Origin: Echinicola arenosa | GTDB taxonomy: Bacteria > Bacteroidota > Bacteroidia > Cytophagales > Cyclobacteriaceae | Length of the DNA: 64,000 bases | Reading direction: 5' to 3' | Assembly (NCBI RefSeq): GCF_014841125.1 | Contig: NZ_JACYTQ010000004.1 | Location: 1-64,000, forward strand | Shown here: positions 6,893-33,231 of the stretch, in pieces | Position numbering within the stretch: the stretch's first letter is position 1 | Layout of the letters: every line of letters begins with the position of its first letter | The notes under the pieces: generated by a model | Databases searched by the model: none | What the model saw: only the letters and a program-made list of their open reading frames with translations | Told to the model about the DNA's origin: nothing | Made by a program: the position numbers and the translations under genes

Positions 6893-6912
6893 CATTAGCA
6901 AAAAGATCAAAT

Positions 6913-6986
6913 AAGGGGTGCCCTAAAGAAACGGGCTGAGATCATACCCATACTACCTGATCCGGGTAATGCCGGCGAAGGGAAAT
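6913..6986 (+). promoter_or_regulatory. TPP riboswitch (THI box)
   Basis: The aptamer is recognisable base by base: GGGGTGC (6915-6921), GGGCTGAGAT (6934-6943), then ACCTGATC (6955-6962) and GGGTAATGCCGGCGAAGGGA (6964-6983), the strongly conserved core of thiamine pyrophosphate aptamers. It lies in the 242-bp leader of the TonB receptor gene at 7083, so receptor synthesis should fall when TPP is abundant. A 7-bp stem at 7031-7049 is the likely expression platform. Confidence 0.96.
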
Positions 6987-7030
6987 GCGATTTCCGAAAA
7001 AAGGAAAGTTACGGGTGAACAATAAACAGG

Positions 7031-25952: not shown

Positions 25953-26369
25953 ATGTTATCCAAAAAAACCAAATATGCTTTCCATGCTTTGACCTATCTT
26001 GGAAAGCATAAAGAAGAAGGGTCCGTGTTGATACAGGATATTGCTACCGAACACGGTATATCGCATAAGTTTCTGGAAAATATTTTGCTGGAATTAAAAA
26101 AGGCAGGTTTTCTTGGAAGTAAAAAAGGAAAAGGTGGAGGTTATTATCTCATCAAAGAGCCTAAGGATATCCCATTGTCAAGAATTATCAGGCTTTTAGA
26201 TGGACCGATAGCTTTGTTGCCTTGTGTCAGTTTGAACTACTATGAAGCTTGTGAAGAATGTAAAGATCAAGTAAAGTGCGGGTTAAATAAAGTGATGATT
26301 CAAGTGAGAGATGAGACACTTAATATACTGGAAAACAAGACGTTATCTGATATACTGGATAAGGAGTAA
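25953..26369 (+). CDS. Rrf2-family transcriptional regulator
   Basis: The 138-residue winged-helix regulator has KKTKYAFHALTYLG at the N-terminus, the IATEHGISHKFLENILLELKKAG recognition region in pieces (about 30-52) and the GGGYYL wing (61-66). Four cysteines at 91, 100, 103 and 109 are placed like the ligand cysteines of IscR/NsrR/CymR-type members, so an Fe-S cluster or thiol sensing is possible. It lies 73 bp upstream of the sulfate assimilation operon in the same direction; Rrf2 proteins such as CymR control cysteine metabolism, so local control is likely. A -7 element TATTTTTG (25941-25948) ends only 4 bp before the ATG, implying a leaderless or very short mRNA 5' end. Confidence 0.88.
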   Translation: MLSKKTKYAFHALTYLGKHKEEGSVLIQDIATEHGISHKFLENILLELKKAGFLGSKKGKGGGYYLIKEPKDIPLSRIIRLLDGPIALLPCVSLNYYEACEECKDQVKCGLNKVMIQVRDETLNILENKTLSDILDKE

Positions 26370-26383
26370 AAAAATTTTCCTAC

Positions 26384-26444
26384 AAACCCTACTTTTTTTA
26401 TAGGTTTTATATACTTTTGTATTTCAACAAATTATAAAACCTAT
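26384..26444 (+). promoter_or_regulatory. Candidate Rrf2 operator of the sulfur operon
   Basis: Three half-sites are seen: AAACCCTA (26384-26391), ATAGGTTTTATA (26400-26411) and TATAAAACCTAT (26433-26444). The last two are exact reverse complements, 12 bp each with a 21-bp spacer, and they bracket the -7 element at 26412-26419. The right arm covers the start codon at 26443. A protein bound here would block both polymerase and the start of the gene. The regulator encoded directly upstream is the natural candidate. Confidence 0.7.
26412..26419 (+). promoter_or_regulatory. -7 element of the sulfur operon promoter
   Basis: TACTTTTG matches TAnnTTTG. It begins directly after the left arm of the inverted repeat, so transcription would start near 26425, giving a leader of about 18 nt. 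Confidence 0.6.
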
Positions 26445-26685
26445 GATTTTTGATCAATCAATCAAAAAATGGTTTGAAGATGAAGAGGGAAAAGACAGTA
26501 ACATCAAAAGCGTGGTGAAGTCTATTTCCTGGAGATTGGTGGGAACCATTGACACTATGGTTATTTCTTATATCATAACCGGTCAAATAAAAACCGCCCT
26601 GTCAATAGGCTCGATAGAAGTAGTAAGTAAAATGGTACTTTATTATTTCCATGAAAGAGCTTGGGCTAAAATCTCAAACAGATAA
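26443..26685 (+). CDS. DUF2061 small membrane protein
   Basis: The 80-residue protein matches the DUF2061 family through VVKSISWRLVGTIDTMVISYIITG (24-47, in pieces) and SIGSIEVVSKMVLYYFHERAW (54-74). It has two hydrophobic helices and a charged N-terminus, so it should sit in the inner membrane. It is the first gene of the sulfate assimilation operon, 10 bp before cysH and directly behind the operator. The family has no established function. Its place here suggests a part in moving or handling sulfate, sulfite or APS-pathway intermediates, which is inference from position only. Confidence 0.85.
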   Translation: MIFDQSIKKWFEDEEGKDSNIKSVVKSISWRLVGTIDTMVISYIITGQIKTALSIGSIEVVSKMVLYYFHERAWAKISNR

Positions 26686-26695
26686 ATAATTGAAG

Positions 26696-27397
26696 ATGAA
26701 GAAGAACCTTTTAAAAGACTTGTCTATACGTGTTGATAATCTTCCCATAGCTGAGGGTATTGCCCAGTTGTGTGAGTTGTTTCCAGGTAAAGTGGTGTTT
26801 TCCACTTCTCTTGGGCAGGAAGATCAGGTGATTACCGAAATCATCGCGAAAAATAACCTTCCGGTAAAGATATTTACATTAGATACCGGAAGACTTTTTT
26901 ATGAAACGTATGACCTTCTTTCAAGGACTGAAAGTAAATACAAAATCAAAATCAAGCCTTACTACCCCAACACCACTTCTGTAGAGAAGTTGGTCATTGA
27001 GAATGGTATCAATGGCTTTTATGAGTCTACTGAGAATCGGAAAAGCTGCTGTTATGTCCGCAAGGTGGAGCCATTGAAGAGAGCCCTTGCTGGTAACAGC
27101 ATCTGGATCACTGGTTTGAGAGCTGAGCAAAGTGAAAACAGAAGTGAGATGAGAAAGCTTGAATGGGATCAAGGTAATCAAATCATGAAGTTTAACCCCC
27201 TATTGGATTGGAGCATGGATGATATGCTGCAATACATCAATGACAATAAAATACCCTATAACCCACTTCATGACAAGGGTTTCATCAGCATTGGCTGTGC
27301 CCCTTGTACCCGGGCGATCGAGCCTGGAGAGGACCCACGTGCCGGCAGATGGTGGTGGGAAAGTTCAAAAAAAGAATGTGGTTTACATATAAAATAG
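26696..27397 (+). CDS. cysH: APS reductase (CysH family, Fe-S type)
   Basis: This cytoplasmic enzyme reduces adenylyl sulfate to sulfite with thioredoxin. Its 233 residues show FSTSLGQEDQV (35-45), the pyrophosphate-loop region and LDTGRLFYET. The cysteines CC (118-119) and C201-x2-C204 form the 4Fe-4S site that distinguishes APS reductases from cluster-free PAPS reductases. The catalytic Cys is C228 in ECGLH at the C-terminus. So APS, not PAPS, is the likely substrate, in line with the absence of cysC in the operon. The start chosen is the ATG at 26696; a TTG six bases earlier is possible. Confidence 0.93.
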   Translation: MKKNLLKDLSIRVDNLPIAEGIAQLCELFPGKVVFSTSLGQEDQVITEIIAKNNLPVKIFTLDTGRLFYETYDLLSRTESKYKIKIKPYYPNTTSVEKLVIENGINGFYESTENRKSCCYVRKVEPLKRALAGNSIWITGLRAEQSENRSEMRKLEWDQGNQIMKFNPLLDWSMDDMLQYINDNKIPYNPLHDKGFISIGCAPCTRAIEPGEDPRAGRWWWESSKKECGLHIK

Positions 27398-27406
27398 ATT
27401 TTAAGC

Positions 27407-28306
27407 ATGAAGAATATATTTGTTCCAAATCCTAAAGAAGCCGAATCCATTCAGATTATCAGAGAAGTGGCTGCACAGTTCGAAAGACCTGTATTGTTGT
27501 TTTCTGGAGGTAAGGACTCGATCACCCTTGTAAGATTGGCTCAAAAAGCTTTTTATCCTGCAAAAATTCCTTTCCCTTTGTTGCATGTGGACACGGGACA
27601 TAACTTTCCGGAAACCATCCGATTCAGAGATCAGTTGGTAGAGGAATTGGGACTGGAATTGATCGTTCGGAATGTACAAGATGCCATTGATCAAGGGAAA
27701 GTACAGGAAGAGAAAGGTCGCTATTCCAGTAGAAATTCACTTCAGACTACCACGTTGTTAGATGCTATTGAAGAGTTCAAGTTTGATGCTTGTATCGGTG
27801 GGGCAAGGAGAGATGAGGAAAAGGCGAGGGCTAAAGAGCGCGTTTTTTCCGTTCGAGATGATTTTGGGCAGTGGGATGAGAAAAACCAAAGACCAGAGCT
27901 TTTTGACATGTTAAATGGAAAGGTTCATCAGGGTCAGAATGTAAGGGCTTTCCCTATTTCCAACTGGACTGAGTTGGATGTGTGGGAATATATTAAGACA
28001 GAAAATATCCAGATTCCTTCCATCTATTTCGCACACAGGAGAGAGACTTTTGTGAGAGATGGTATGATCTGGACAGCGTCTGAACATGTTTATCGTGAGG
28101 AGCATGAAGAGGTGGAAGAAAGAATGGTTCGATTTAGAACGGTAGGGGATATGACCTGTACTGCAGCAGTGCTTTCAGAAGCGGAAACCTTGGAGGAGGT
28201 AGTGGATGAAATCAGGGCCAGTACGATCTCTGAACGTGGAGCAAGAATTGATGATAAACGCTCTGAAGCAGCGATGGAGAGCAGGAAGAAAGTGGGATAT
28301 TTCTAG
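27407..28306 (+). CDS. cysD: Sulfate adenylyltransferase subunit 2
   Basis: This is the small, catalytic subunit of ATP sulfurylase, which makes APS from sulfate and ATP. In 299 residues it shows the PP-loop VLLFSGGKDSITLVRLAQKAF, read in pieces (FSGGKDS near 33-39), LHVDTGHNFPET, and GGARRDEEKARAKER, all diagnostic of CysD. It works as a heterodimer with CysN, encoded next. It starts 9 bp after cysH in the same operon. Confidence 0.96.
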   Translation: MKNIFVPNPKEAESIQIIREVAAQFERPVLLFSGGKDSITLVRLAQKAFYPAKIPFPLLHVDTGHNFPETIRFRDQLVEELGLELIVRNVQDAIDQGKVQEEKGRYSSRNSLQTTTLLDAIEEFKFDACIGGARRDEEKARAKERVFSVRDDFGQWDEKNQRPELFDMLNGKVHQGQNVRAFPISNWTELDVWEYIKTENIQIPSIYFAHRRETFVRDGMIWTASEHVYREEHEEVEERMVRFRTVGDMTCTAAVLSEAETLEEVVDEIRASTISERGARIDDKRSEAAMESRKKVGYF

Positions 28307-28387
28307 AATGACCAACGCTTGAACTCAGCGGCATTTCATTTAACGTTGACCCTTTTGCCACATTTCAAATTCCCTAAAAAGAAAACA

Positions 28388-29647
28388 ATGAGTACTGAAA
28401 ATAGAAAACTGATTAATATAGCTACAGCTGGTAGTGTGGATGATGGAAAGAGCACACTTATCGGTAGACTGCTTTATGATACCAAATCCTTGACAACAGA
28501 TAAACTGGAAGCTATTGAGCGGAACAGTAAGCAAAAAGGATTTGATTATCTTGATTTTTCCTTGGCTACTGATGGATTGGTGGCTGAGAGGGAGCAAGGC
28601 ATTACCATTGATGTAGCGCATATTTACTTCAATACCCAAAAGACAAATTACATCATCGCGGATACCCCAGGTCACGTGGAGTATACCAGAAATATGGTTA
28701 CTGGAGCCTCTACTTCGCAAGTGGCTATAATCCTGATTGATGCCAGAAAAGGTGTGATAGAGCAAACTTACCGTCACTTTTTTATCAATAACCTACTTCG
28801 TGTAGGCCATGTCATTGTGGCAATTAACAAAATGGATTTGGTGGACTTTGACCAACAGGTTTTTGAAGATATCAAGGCGGATTTTGAAGGACTGATAGAA
28901 AAGAGTGATTACAATGATGACCAGGTGACATTTATTCCTGTAAGTGCACTTCATGGAGATAATATCGCTACCGGATCAGATAAAATGGATTGGTATCAAG
29001 GACCTTCCTTGTTGGATTATCTGGAAGATTTAGAGATTGACGAGTTAGAAGACCACAGTGCAGCGCGTTTTTCCGTACAATATGTAGTAAGGCCAAAGAC
29101 AGATGCCCATCATGATTTCAGGGGATTTGCGGGTAAGCTTTACGGAGGAAATATTGCTGTTGGAGATGAGGTAACTGTTTTGCCAACATTTACCACAACT
29201 AAAGTCAAAGCCATTCATTTCTTTGATCAGGAGTTTGATGAAGCAGTGCCTGGAAGCTCCATTACGATTACTTTGGAAGACGAAGTAAATGTAAGCAGAG
29301 GGGACATGTTGGTAAAATCCAGCGAACTTCCGAAATCAGAAAAGCAACTATCCGCTACCATTTGTCAGGTGAACAGTAAACCTTTGAAAATTGGTGCAAA
29401 ATATATTCTTCAACATGGCGTGAACCAAGTTTTAGCCAAAGTGGACAGCATAGAGGGCTTGGTACACACAGATTTCTCCGGAGGAGAAGCAGCGGATCAG
29501 TTGAAGTTAAATGATATCGGTAAAGTGAATTTTAGGTTGAGTAAGCCTATTCACTTTGACCCTTACAAAGAAAGCAAGTCTAACGGAAGCTTTATTTTGA
29601 TCGATGAAAGTTCCTATGATACGACCAGTGTAGGGTTCATCCAGTAG
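28388..29647 (+). CDS. cysN: Sulfate adenylyltransferase subunit 1, GTPase
   Basis: This is the regulatory GTPase subunit of ATP sulfurylase. In 419 residues the elongation-factor-like G domain shows GSVDDGKST (15-23), DTPGHVEYTRNM and NKMDLVD, followed by two beta-barrel domains. There is no fused APS kinase (CysC) domain, consistent with an APS reductase pathway. The start ATG is at 28388; an upstream TTG (28319) would add a non-conserved segment. The 81-bp gap after cysD has no terminator, so co-transcription continues. Confidence 0.95.
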   Translation: MSTENRKLINIATAGSVDDGKSTLIGRLLYDTKSLTTDKLEAIERNSKQKGFDYLDFSLATDGLVAEREQGITIDVAHIYFNTQKTNYIIADTPGHVEYTRNMVTGASTSQVAIILIDARKGVIEQTYRHFFINNLLRVGHVIVAINKMDLVDFDQQVFEDIKADFEGLIEKSDYNDDQVTFIPVSALHGDNIATGSDKMDWYQGPSLLDYLEDLEIDELEDHSAARFSVQYVVRPKTDAHHDFRGFAGKLYGGNIAVGDEVTVLPTFTTTKVKAIHFFDQEFDEAVPGSSITITLEDEVNVSRGDMLVKSSELPKSEKQLSATICQVNSKPLKIGAKYILQHGVNQVLAKVDSIEGLVHTDFSGGEAADQLKLNDIGKVNFRLSKPIHFDPYKESKSNGSFILIDESSYDTTSVGFIQ

Positions 29648-29714: not shown

Positions 29715-31817
29715 ATGCAAAGTTTTAGAACAGAAATTGAAAATCCACTCGTGGAAAAAGATATTATCGAACTAGAAAAGAAGATTGCACTTTTCAAGGA
29801 CGGTAAGATAGATGAAGAAAAATTCAGAAGCCTAAGACTGGCAAGAGGCGTTTATGGCCAGCGTCAGCAAGGTGTGCAGATGATTCGGATCAAATTGCCA
29901 TATGGTAAGGTGACAGGCAAGCAGCTGCATAGAATCTGTAAGGTATCCGATGAATATTCCACGGGAAGATTACACATCACCACGCGTCAAGATATCCAAA
30001 TCCATTACGTAAGCCTTGACCGCACACCGGAACTATGGGCCGAATTGGAGAAGGATGATGTGACCTTGAGGGAAGCTTGTGGTAATACGGTTAGGAATGT
30101 AACCGCTTCAGAAACTGCAGGCGTAGATCCTAAGGAAGCGTTTGACGTAACACCTTACGCAGATGCCACATTCCGCTACATGTTGAGAAACCCAATTTCT
30201 CAAGAGATGGGAAGAAAGTTCAAAATGGCCTTTTCTTCCAGTGAGGAGGATACTGCTTTGACCTATCTTCATGACTTGGGTTTTATCCCAAAGATCAAAA
30301 CCGTCAATGGTGAAGAAGTAAGAGGCTTTAAGGTAATGCTTGGAGGTGGTCTTGGTTCTCAACCAAGAAATGCAGACATCATCACTGATTTTCTAGAAAC
30401 TGATCAATTAATTCCTTTTATCGAAGGCGTAGTAAGGATCTTTGACCGTCATGGAGAAAGAGCCAAAAGGATGAAAGCGAGAATGAAATTCCTTATCAAG
30501 GAAATTGGTGTGGAAGCATTCTTACAACTAGTGGAGGAGGAGCAAAAAGCACTTCAGTTCCAATCATATCCGATTGATTATAAAAGCTATGAGGAGAAAC
30601 AACAATTGCCAAATCCTGAAATTCCAAGTGTAACTGCGCCTCAGGGCGAAGCCTATGAGAGATGGTTGAAAACTAACGTGATTCCTCAGAAGCAAGCAGG
30701 TTATGTGTCTATTGGTATCAAAGTTCATTTGGGAGATTTTTATACAGATAAAGCTAGAAAGCTAGCGGATTTGGTCAGCAAATATGCCAACGACGAGATT
30801 CGTTTGACGCTGCGACAAAATATCCTGATCAGGGATGTAAAAGAAGAAGCCCTGCCATTCTTCTATCAGCAATTGGAGGAATTGGATTTTGTGGCCTATG
30901 GCTACAATACACTTGCTGACCTGACTGCCTGCCCAGGTACGGATACTTGTAATTTGGGAATCGCTAGCAGCACAGGGGCTGCTCACATTTTGGAAGAGGT
31001 GATCTTCAAGGAATATCCTCAGCACTTGTTCAATAAGGATTTGACCATCAAGATTTCAGGTTGTATGAATGCATGTGGTCAGCATAATATGGCGTCTATT
31101 GGATTCCAGGGTATGTCCATAAAAGTGGGCAAATCAGTGATCCCAGCATTGCAGGTGCTTTTGGGTGGTGCTACTTTAGGTGATGGTGAAGGAAGATTTG
31201 CGGATAAAGTTATCAAAATCCCAAGTAAAAGAGCTCCCCAAGCACTGAGGGTTATTTTGGATGATTATGATAAGAATGCAGCAAGCGGAGAGGCATTTGT
31301 AGATTACTATGACCGTCAAGGACAGATGTATTTCTATGAAAATCTCAAGCCTTTGGCCAGTACAGAGGATGTGGTAGATGCAGATTTCATTGATTGGGGT
31401 AATGAACAGCCTTATGTGAAAGCCGTTGGCGTAGGAGAATGTGCCGGTGTAGTGATTGATTTGGTGGCAACTTTACTCTTAGAAGCGCGTGAGAAACTGG
31501 CCAATGCTGAAGATAGTATCAATGACCAGAAGTGGTCTGATAGTATCTATCATACCTATGCCACTTTGGTAAATACGGCAAAAGCTATTTTGGTTTCTGA
31601 AGGTAAGAAAACCAATTCCTATGCAGATATTGTCAACCAATTTGATGAGACATTTGTCGCGACAGGCAAGATAGATTTGGGAAGTAGTTTCGCGGATGTA
31701 GTTTATGAAATCCAAAGAAATGAGCCTACAGAGGAGTTTGCCAAAGCCTATTATAAAAAAGCAGAAAAAGTATATCATTTGATCAGTGATTTCAGAGCGA
31801 AGGAGGTAGAAGCATGA
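29715..31817 (+). CDS. Siroheme sulfite (nitrite/sulfite) reductase with C-terminal helical extension
   Basis: This enzyme reduces sulfite to sulfide with six electrons. Its 700 residues contain two ferredoxin-like and two siroheme-binding halves. The siroheme-4Fe-4S site is C406-x5-C412 (TACPGTDTCNLG) and C450-x3-C454 (SGCMNACGQH). No flavoprotein subunit gene is present, so ferredoxin is the likely donor. Residues from about 565 to 700 form an extra helical domain after the usual end; the pattern around DSIYHTYATLVNTAKAIL resembles HEPN domains, though no RNase motif is clear. The start ATG at 29715 fits the family N-terminus. It overlaps cobA by 4 bp. Confidence 0.9.
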   Translation: MQSFRTEIENPLVEKDIIELEKKIALFKDGKIDEEKFRSLRLARGVYGQRQQGVQMIRIKLPYGKVTGKQLHRICKVSDEYSTGRLHITTRQDIQIHYVSLDRTPELWAELEKDDVTLREACGNTVRNVTASETAGVDPKEAFDVTPYADATFRYMLRNPISQEMGRKFKMAFSSSEEDTALTYLHDLGFIPKIKTVNGEEVRGFKVMLGGGLGSQPRNADIITDFLETDQLIPFIEGVVRIFDRHGERAKRMKARMKFLIKEIGVEAFLQLVEEEQKALQFQSYPIDYKSYEEKQQLPNPEIPSVTAPQGEAYERWLKTNVIPQKQAGYVSIGIKVHLGDFYTDKARKLADLVSKYANDEIRLTLRQNILIRDVKEEALPFFYQQLEELDFVAYGYNTLADLTACPGTDTCNLGIASSTGAAHILEEVIFKEYPQHLFNKDLTIKISGCMNACGQHNMASIGFQGMSIKVGKSVIPALQVLLGGATLGDGEGRFADKVIKIPSKRAPQALRVILDDYDKNAASGEAFVDYYDRQGQMYFYENLKPLASTEDVVDADFIDWGNEQPYVKAVGVGECAGVVIDLVATLLLEAREKLANAEDSINDQKWSDSIYHTYATLVNTAKAILVSEGKKTNSYADIVNQFDETFVATGKIDLGSSFADVVYEIQRNEPTEEFAKAYYKKAEKVYHLISDFRAKEVEA

Positions 31818-32578
31818 CAGGTGGAGTCAAGCCAAAACTTACGCTTGTAGGTGCTGGTCCTGGTGATCCAGAATTGATTACCTTGAAAGGGATTTTAGCA
31901 CTGGGCAAGGCAGATGTGGTATTGTATGATGCCTTGGTGGATAAATCTTTATTAAAGCATGCCACAGAAAATGCCATTAAAGTTTTTGTGGGCAAACGTC
32001 ATGGGAGCAAAATGAATCCTCAAGAGGAAACCAACAAGTTGATTGTTGAATATGCTCTTAAATATGGGCATGTTGTTCGGTTAAAAGGAGGTGATCCATT
32101 TGTCTTTGGGCGTGGAGCTGAAGAAATAGACTATGTTCAACAGTTTGGGATAGAAACAGAAGTAGTTCCAGGGATAACTTCCAGTGTGGCAGTTCCTGCT
32201 TTACAAGGAATCCCCGTTACCAAGAGAGGCGTCTCGGAGAGTTTTTGGGTGATTACGGGGACCACTTCATCGGGACAGCTATCCAGAGACATCAAGATTG
32301 CTGCCCAATCCACCGCGACAGTTGTGATTTTGATGGGTACTAGAAAGCTTAGGGAAATTGTCGATGAATTTAGCCTAAATGGGAAAGAAGACACGCCTAT
32401 TGCTTTGATTCAAAATGGAACGACAGATGCTGAAAGAATTGTAGCAGGCTACATCTGTAATATAGAAGAAAAAGTACATAGTTCTGGGATTGGAGCTCCA
32501 GCTGTTATCATAGTTGGGGATGTTGTGCGAGAAAGTCCTAAATTGATGGAAATTTATAGAGAAGCCATTCGTGTGTGA
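31814..32578 (+). CDS. cobA: Uroporphyrinogen-III C-methyltransferase (SUMT)
   Basis: This SAM-dependent methylase converts uroporphyrinogen III to precorrin-2, the first committed step to siroheme. In 254 residues it shows LVGAGPGDPELITLKG (near 10-25), the RLKGGDPFVFGRGAEE motif and VPGITSSVAVPALQGIPVTKRG in pieces, all family signatures. It overlaps the end of the sulfite reductase gene by 4 bp (ATGA), so its product supplies the cofactor for that enzyme. The CysG-N/Met8 gene that completes siroheme follows after a hairpin. Confidence 0.95.
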   Translation: MTGGVKPKLTLVGAGPGDPELITLKGILALGKADVVLYDALVDKSLLKHATENAIKVFVGKRHGSKMNPQEETNKLIVEYALKYGHVVRLKGGDPFVFGRGAEEIDYVQQFGIETEVVPGITSSVAVPALQGIPVTKRGVSESFWVITGTTSSGQLSRDIKIAAQSTATVVILMGTRKLREIVDEFSLNGKEDTPIALIQNGTTDAERIVAGYICNIEEKVHSSGIGAPAVIIVGDVVRESPKLMEIYREAIRV

Positions 32579-32655: not shown

Positions 32656-33231
32656 ATGAACGAACTTTACCCTGTGTTCCTTAAAGTGGCGCAACTGAAT
32701 ACGCTGATTGTAGGAGCGGGAAATGTTGGATTAGAGAAATTGTCTTTCTTGCTAAAGTCAAGTCCCAATGCGCAAGTAACGATCGTGGCTAAAGAGATTT
32801 CTCCGGAAATCAAAAAGATTGCAGATCAGAGTGATGCGATTGCCTTGGTAGAAGACAGTTATAAGGAGAAATATTTGAATGGAAGGCATATTGTGATCGG
32901 TGCTACTGATGACAAGGATGTGAACAAACAGATTCATTTGGATGCCAAGGCAAGAAACCTTTTAGTGAACATTGCCGATACCCCAGCGCTTTGTGACTTT
33001 TATTTGGGAGGAATTGTAACTAAAGGTAATGTCAAGATAGCCATCAGTACCAATGGCAAATCACCAACAACTGCGAAAAGATTAAGGCAGCTTTTGGAGG
33101 AAATCATTCCTGAGGATATTAATGAAATGGTGGAGAACATTCATTTGTACAGGGATACTCTAAAAGGTGATTTTGAATATAAAGTGGAAGCTTTGAATAA
33201 ACTGACCAAAGAGTTATTGGTGAAAAACTAA
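32656..33231 (+). CDS. Precorrin-2 dehydrogenase / siroheme synthase N-domain protein
   Basis: This 191-residue protein of the CysG-N/Met8 type oxidises precorrin-2 with NAD and probably inserts iron to give siroheme. It shows the NAD-binding loop LIVGAGNVGLEKL (17-29), VIGATDD, NIADTPALCDFYLGG and ISTNGKSPTTAKRLR. There is no fused methyltransferase, which is supplied by the cobA gene upstream. A strong terminator 50 bp after the stop marks the end of the sulfur operon. Confidence 0.9.
   Translation: MNELYPVFLKVAQLNTLIVGAGNVGLEKLSFLLKSSPNAQVTIVAKEISPEIKKIADQSDAIALVEDSYKEKYLNGRHIVIGATDDKDVNKQIHLDAKARNLLVNIADTPALCDFYLGGIVTKGNVKIAISTNGKSPTTAKRLRQLLEEIIPEDINEMVENIHLYRDTLKGDFEYKVEALNKLTKELLVKN

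Follow-up and report, generated by a model that had tools for sequence, protein, structure and literature searches.

A mirrored site ahead of a sulfate assimilation operon very probably lets a cysteine-rich Rrf2 regulator, predicted from the gene directly upstream, switch sulfur assimilation on and off. The best explanation of the data, which we consider probable, is that a dimer of this protein represses the cys operon through a 21-bp palindrome at 26386–26406 of the window (the whole 64-kb stretch of DNA that was analysed) and binds a second copy of the palindrome at a marR-fnr promoter. The site, its position, its conservation, its co-occurrence with the regulator gene and the second copy are all read from the sequences described below.

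The Rrf2 gene (25953–26369, + strand, 138 aa; stop codon at 26367–26369) is followed, after a gap of 73 nt, by a gene for a small DUF2061 membrane protein (26443–26685, +; Pfam PF09834, E 1.8e-24), the first gene of the operon. The gene order in the window is Rrf2–DUF2061–cysH–cysD–cysN–sir–cobA–cysG, with all operon genes on the same (+) strand as Rrf2. The operon encodes a (P)APS reductase (cysH, 26696–27397; NCBIfam TIGR02055, 260.3 bits against a cut-off of 235.3), the small subunit (cysD, 27407–28306; NCBIfam CysD, 414.1 against 396.6) and the GTPase subunit (cysN, 28373–29647; NCBIfam CysN, 502.6 against 336.1) of sulfate adenylyltransferase, a NirA-like siroheme sulfite/nitrite reductase (sir, 29718–31817; Pfam NIR_SIR and NIR_SIR_ferr, two stretches each) and two enzymes of siroheme synthesis, uroporphyrinogen-III C-methyltransferase (cobA/cysG-C, 31814–32578; NCBIfam TIGR01469, 275.8 against 185) and precorrin-2 dehydrogenase (cysG-N, 32656–33231; NCBIfam TIGR01470, 130.6 against 62.3). 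Every one of the 11 NCBIfam matches of sir fell under its cut-off, and the product is assigned as a sulfite reductase by context, with ferredoxin its presumptive electron donor. The C-terminus of the sir product (residues 585–687) carries an odd addition, a weak HEPN match (E 8.4e-5; 23.2 bits, cut-off 22).

An Rfam search of the window revealed a TPP riboswitch at 6904–7000 on the + strand (62.3 bits). At the cys promoter no riboswitch or other known RNA was found in Rfam at gathering level. In genera that lack DUF2061 (L027, L037, L040 and L051–L056) cysH starts 77–174 nt after the Rrf2 stop codon, and the leader reaches up to ∼125 nt as compared with ∼20 nt ahead of DUF2061. The long leaders before cysH gave no credible Rfam match in seven loci (best E 0.1), and the two leaders that were folded did no better than their shuffles.

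A four-cysteine Rrf2 gene directly upstream of the operon had been proposed in an earlier reading made from the sequence only, and the assignment was confirmed. The product matched Pfam PF02082 with E 4.2e-37 (127.7 bits against 30) and TIGR00738 with 112.6 bits against 73.3, passing both superfamily cut-offs. It is the one Rrf2 gene of the genome above the Pfam cut-off, three weaker matches lying under it. Scores against the CymR, IscR, RirA and NsrR equivalogs were far under their cut-offs, so the protein can be filed only as an Rrf2 family member. Four C-terminal cysteines (C91, C100, C103 and C109, spaced C-X8-C-X2-C-X5-C) are invariant in 202/202 homologues; the Fe–S group of Rrf2 proteins is recognized by at least three conserved C-terminal cysteines, and four are present here. 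This is as expected for a cluster-binding Rrf2 protein and would fit one, short of proving a cluster. Judged from its sequence, the protein most likely represses sulfate and sulfite reduction as an Rrf2 regulator of the Fe–S type.

The same sequence-only reading had described two exact 12-bp arms that flank the −7 element and reach the start codon, together with a third half-site just upstream, and had taken the two arms as the operator. The repeats are present as described. The left arm ATAGGTTTTATA (26400–26411) and the right arm TATAAAACCTAT (26433–26444, unstranded, overlapping the DUF2061 start codon) are 100% complementary with 21 nt between them; the promoter −7 element TACTTTTG (26412–26419, +), of the TAnnTTTG class and read directly in the sequence, sits between the arms, and the upstream word AAACCCTA occupies 26384–26391. 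The pairing proposed for them was only partly right, as the right arm is mostly gone outside the genus while the upstream half-site and the left arm stay. Conservation among relatives that keep the gene order thus favours the left arm and goes against the right one.

As predicted from this conservation, the conserved operator joins the upstream half-site to the left arm (26386–26406, unstranded) in a 21-bp palindrome, ACCCTAC-TTTTTTT-ATAGGTT with half-sites ACCCTA (26386–26391) and TAGGTT (26401–26406). Its outer spacing is CC-N13-GG, spelled CC TACTTTTTTTATA GG in this genome. Alignment of the sites in relatives, to which 55 of 58 loci contributed rows (not L060, L062 and L065), yielded 35 distinct sites with the family consensus ACCCTAY-N7-RTAGGnTTT, immediately 5′ of a TAnnTTTG box on which gaps were aligned. 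The box is all but constant in the 35 distinct sites, and C(−7), A(−5), T(+5) and G(+7) of the palindrome are invariant. The CCTA-N9-TAGG spacing is fixed outside the genus, where both upstream half-site and left arm are retained, and the stretch AAACCCTACTTTTTTTATAGGTTTTATATACTTTTG is identical in all 11 genus genomes, as are the palindrome and the −7 box.

We regard it as quite unlikely that the operator is instead the 12-bp inverted repeat at 26400–26444, or that all three half-sites act together, occupied by a pair of dimers or by a looped complex. The arms are perfect in their own genome, AACCTAT stands ahead of the start codon in 10 of the 11 genus genomes, and CCTATG at this place is found outside the genus in L016, L029, L058 and L059. 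However, only 10 of 39 loci have CCTATG at the start codon, six of them from the genus itself (L060 is without a start codon in this count), and by eye the marR-fnr promoters described below carry just the two half-sites of the palindrome. Six of the 11 genus genomes have a perfect right arm, three have one change, one has two changes and another has a broken arm, while the spacer TTCAACAAATTA beside it is intact in 10; the right arm is therefore no better kept than its neighbour. It would also be decidedly improbable that the arms act in RNA, with a hairpin that hides the DUF2061 start codon on transcripts reading through from Rrf2, and with transcripts from TACTTTTG lacking the left arm and being translated. 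Folded as RNA, 26395–26450 scored better than every one of its 200 dinucleotide shuffles (z −5.8), which makes the arm pair a non-trivial feature of this sequence, and the single right-arm change in L010, L013 and L014 keeps G–U pairing. Yet the hairpin is mostly absent outside the genus, is broken in L386 and has no Rfam match at gathering level; if real, it would add to the operator rather than replace it. The right arm, which lies outside the conserved operator, is at most an extra half-site or a hairpin arm at the level of the genus.

The palindrome at 26386–26406, our preferred operator, was followed through the relatives of the Rrf2 gene. Matches to the Rrf2 protein at E ≤ 1e-15 were found at 139 places in 113 of 196 family genomes. 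The 110 places examined comprise 58 loci with at least 64% identity (L009–L066) and 52 others (L067–L118). With gene context covered to at most 5 kb downstream per locus, sulfate assimilation genes followed Rrf2 in 57 of the 58 closer loci (the exception being L065) and in only one, L102, of the other 52; these 57 loci and L102 make up 58 cys-adjacent family loci. In the 200 nt that follow the Rrf2 stop codon, 57/58 of the cys-adjacent loci had a palindrome scoring at least 12; the 200 nt preceding the gene had none (0/58). The symmetrised 21-bp profile used for scoring is partly self-trained, its 35 distinct training sites having come from the family loci, so that the fair tests are loci outside the training set.

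Two such sets were assessed. Among genomes of the class outside training, in which 40 of 80 Rrf2 places were sampled, the palindrome was found at 11 of 13 cys-adjacent loci, 2/2 SLC13-adjacent loci, 0/1 peroxiredoxin-adjacent loci and 6/24 other loci (p ≤ 0.02, dinucleotide shuffles). A further, named set consisted of the best 80 of 566 relatives, grouped by us, according to locus number, into ‘new’ and ‘train-like’ loci. Here the palindrome was present at 18 of 26 cys-adjacent loci, as compared with 0/25 loci whose first 1.8 kb contained no cys gene (p ≤ 0.01); leaving out L441, which shares a contig (6751 bases in each case) with the training locus L066, the count was 17 of 25. All 29 loci that resemble the training set had it. 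The eight cys-adjacent loci without a palindrome were all titled Chitinophaga in their records, with the cysH match beyond the 220 nt scanned (at 285 nt in one case).

Paralogues of Rrf2 within the family (p ≤ 0.02) showed the palindrome at nine of 10 loci next to an SLC13-type anion permease, at six of eight next to a peroxiredoxin and at 2/34 other loci. The pattern over neighbours indicates that the palindrome accompanies Rrf2 genes standing directly before a co-directional target. Because sites also occur at ‘other’ loci (2/34 in the family, 6/24 in the class) and in regions with no clear sulfur or redox neighbour (see below), the palindrome marks Rrf2 targets generally and not sulfur genes alone. 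The genomes are related, and locus counts are thus not independent events. In a tree of 202 Rrf2 proteins the cys-adjacent label changed 14 times, compared with a mean of 67.6 changes over 50 shuffles; this says only that gene context follows descent, and was given no weight.

A control sample comprised 11 genomes that have cysH and none of which has an Rrf2 protein of the cys-linked group. The five cysH loci of genomes in which Rrf2 gave no match at E ≤ 1e-15 all lacked the site (0/5), a count weakened by L278, which is cut by a contig end, and by L281, in which cysH follows another cysH-like frame and may lie inside an operon. In genomes with paralogues only, 3/6 cysH loci scored at least 12, and L277 scored 8.0 with its core intact; in the remaining two, L280 and L282, cysH follows a siroheme-gene-like frame. 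The regulator-less control points the way that the model would predict, but it is small.

A search of the genome for other copies of the operator, which the sequence-only reading had proposed, revealed a second palindrome before a MarR–ferredoxin:NADP+ reductase operon. A profile of site plus promoter, which includes the cys site itself, gave 38.7 bits at 26386–26419, then 19.9 bits at C3:66836 and 15.3 bits at C1:684117; each genome scan scored 150 first-look candidates, which may leave weaker sites unseen. The C3 site stands 73 nt ahead of a MarR gene, which is followed by a flavoprotein gene. Among solved structures, the flavoprotein has its best match in a ferredoxin-NADP reductase (5ygq, E 4.7e-96). 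Searches with the exact left-arm word and with loose two-mismatch patterns gave counts no higher than the reversed-pattern control and served only as a pointer to C3:66838. L150, one mismatch away from site plus promoter, was dropped because its palindrome profile score was only 6.5. With the palindrome-only profile, all 11 genus genomes had the cys site and all 11 had a marR-type match (20.8–22.6 bits), the marR gene context being seen in seven of the 11, with G485–G488 outside that count. The local Rrf2 circuit on APS reduction that had been proposed fared differently in its two parts: a circuit, as predicted from an operator that touches the promoter and is conserved well beyond the genus, is supported, and its purely local character probably does not, given the same palindrome ahead of marR-fnr in the same genome.

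Some weaker matches were seen in the genus. A third palindrome (16.9 bits) lies at C1:482790–482809 (L398) between arginase-like and small-protein genes. In five genus relatives (L393–L395, L397 and L399) it lies between genes of the same two kinds, and in L396 beside the small-protein gene. In L400 (G486) a palindrome match stands 464 nt before a homoserine O-acetyltransferase-like gene (by eye).

The MarR protein was found in 92 of 196 family genomes, and 70 of its promoters were examined, with genomes assigned by us, according to locus number, to a group with a cys-linked Rrf2, a paralogue-only group and a group without an Rrf2 match; 53 of 61 site sequences were taken on to the subsequent step. 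Of the 50 genomes with a cys-linked Rrf2, 39 had a palindrome 69–74 nt before the marR start codon and 11 lacked it despite the regulator; it was present in 0/12 paralogue-only genomes and in 0/8 without a match. MarR identity was 67–100% in genomes with a cys-linked Rrf2 and 49–62% in those without, so that palindrome-less genomes are also more distant in MarR, and the co-occurrence may reflect few evolutionary events. A separate element, ACTAAnnATT, is present no more than 60 nt from the start codon of marR in 45 of the 70 loci (L301–L370), or 36/50, 7/12 and 2/8 by group, and is probably MarR’s own operator.

In the model that we prefer, the Rrf2 product of the upstream gene would bind the palindrome at 26386–26406 as a dimer. 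The promoter motif known for the phylum combines TAnnTTTG at −7 with TTTG near −33 (excerpt of PMC7366714). The 21 bp of the palindrome cover the −33 element and the spacer of the TACTTTTG promoter, so bound protein should exclude RNA polymerase and would thereby repress DUF2061-cysHDN-sir-cobA-cysG. The same protein would bind the second copy ahead of the MarR–ferredoxin:NADP+ reductase operon, which would supply electrons to the siroheme sulfite reductase. More tentatively, an Fe–S cluster on the four cysteines might report sulfur and Fe–S sufficiency and so close a feedback loop: given enough cysteine and Fe–S clusters the holo protein would repress, and loss of the cluster or another sulfur signal would release the operon. 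Binding, repression at the cys promoter and a role, in repression or in activation, at the marR-fnr promoter are thus what we infer for the protein.

Position bears on the sign of this control. The centre of the palindrome is 16 nt before the −7 box at the cys promoter and 35–39 nt before it at the marR-fnr promoter, 19–23 nt further or about two turns, and the two promoters are not both explained by one repressor geometry. A site some two turns ahead of the core promoter is in the usual position of an activator, and one over the −33 region and spacer in that of a repressor. Activation of the cys operon by the Rrf2 protein, with bound and unbound forms both mattering, as for IscR, could draw on the placement of the second site but sits poorly with that of the cys palindrome, and we think it unlikely; at marR-fnr, activation is as likely as repression. 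The second site also stands upstream of a MarR gene, as it might if another regulator, for example MarR, bound the palindrome and its closeness to Rrf2 were due to chance or operon inheritance. This we hold to be highly improbable. The ACTAAnnATT element occurs in all three groups of genomes, including those without the palindrome, so the palindrome is not simply MarR’s own site; it is absent at marR in 20/20 examined genomes that lack a cys-linked Rrf2; and a similar palindrome lies beside Rrf2 paralogues with different neighbours (SLC13, peroxiredoxin).

The palindrome is directly 5′ of cysHDN-sir and, in relatives, also of a second cysH, of sir and of anion permease genes, as read from sequence only. 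Thirty regions surrounding matches of second rank in the family scan were judged by eye, by tblastn and by Pfam on ten proteins. They comprised the marR-fnr operon (six regions), SLC13/PHO4-type permeases (four), cysH-type genes (four) and sir (one). A further 7/30 were beside a small protein and an arginine-decarboxylase-like gene and linked to a second Rrf2 paralogue, and 2/30 were between an O-acetylhomoserine/O-acetylserine sulfhydrylase gene (∼360 nt off) and a nearer gene of no assigned function; 6/30 were without a clear sulfur or redox neighbour. Part of the second-rank sites may belong to the Rrf2 paralogue. At L235 a second Rrf2 paralogue (45% identical) has three palindrome copies around it, and is flanked by a sulfite-exporter-like membrane protein gene (by eye) and by the small protein and arginine-decarboxylase-like genes. 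No isc or suf genes were recognized beside the inspected sites in a by-eye reading that followed up part of the weak genome matches.

Judged from sequence, the likely targets of the protein are like those of CymR, and its cysteines and the spacing of its operator are like those of IscR. With CymR the protein shares the Rrf2 fold, solved CymR chains (3t8r and 2y75) being among its best matches, and sulfur assimilation genes as targets, here predicted. The excerpt of PMC3828012 describes a CymR DNA motif that resembles the IscR motif, and a CymR that works with CysK and responds to O-acetylserine. In contrast, the NCBIfam CymR score is 70.4 here against a cut-off of 195, and the stretch with C100 and C103 falls in a gap of the alignment to 2y75. 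IscR likewise has an Rrf2 domain and C-terminal cysteines, and the type 2 motif given for it in the excerpted PMC4169559, AxxxCCxxAxxxxxxxTAxGGxxxT, has the CC-N13-GG spacing of the operator here. The protein differs from IscR in its score (68.1 against 207.55), in having four cysteines spaced C-X8-C-X2-C-X5-C, in the inner bases of the operator (CTAY/RTAG) and in its neighbours, which are genes of sulfate and sulfite reduction rather than Fe–S assembly. Rrf2 proteins of the RirA/NsrR type, with a [4Fe-4S] cluster, have at least three conserved cysteines between the DNA-binding domain and the dimer helix (excerpt of PMC5863699), a feature shared here with four. The scores are nevertheless 54.8 against 193 for RirA and 48.8 against 182 for NsrR. 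The target genes of RirA and NsrR differ from those of the present protein.

The open-access titles and abstract openings that were searched contained no description of how this phylum controls assimilatory sulfate reduction, or of the present regulator. With a single regulator, a single operator sequence and a brief list of targets now named, the question of control can be tested directly. We give about an even chance to the broader proposition that this is an ancient, class-wide, Fe–S-sensing Rrf2 regulator. Through one CTAY-N7-RTAG operator it would tie sulfate activation, sulfite reduction, siroheme synthesis and electron supply by ferredoxin:NADP+ reductase, together in certain genera with anion uptake and a second cysH, to Fe–S and cysteine status; with its IscR-like sensor it would then stand alongside CysB and CymR as a third means of controlling the supply of cysteine. 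Should a cluster sit on the four cysteines, control of cysteine supply and sensing of Fe–S would be joined in a single protein.
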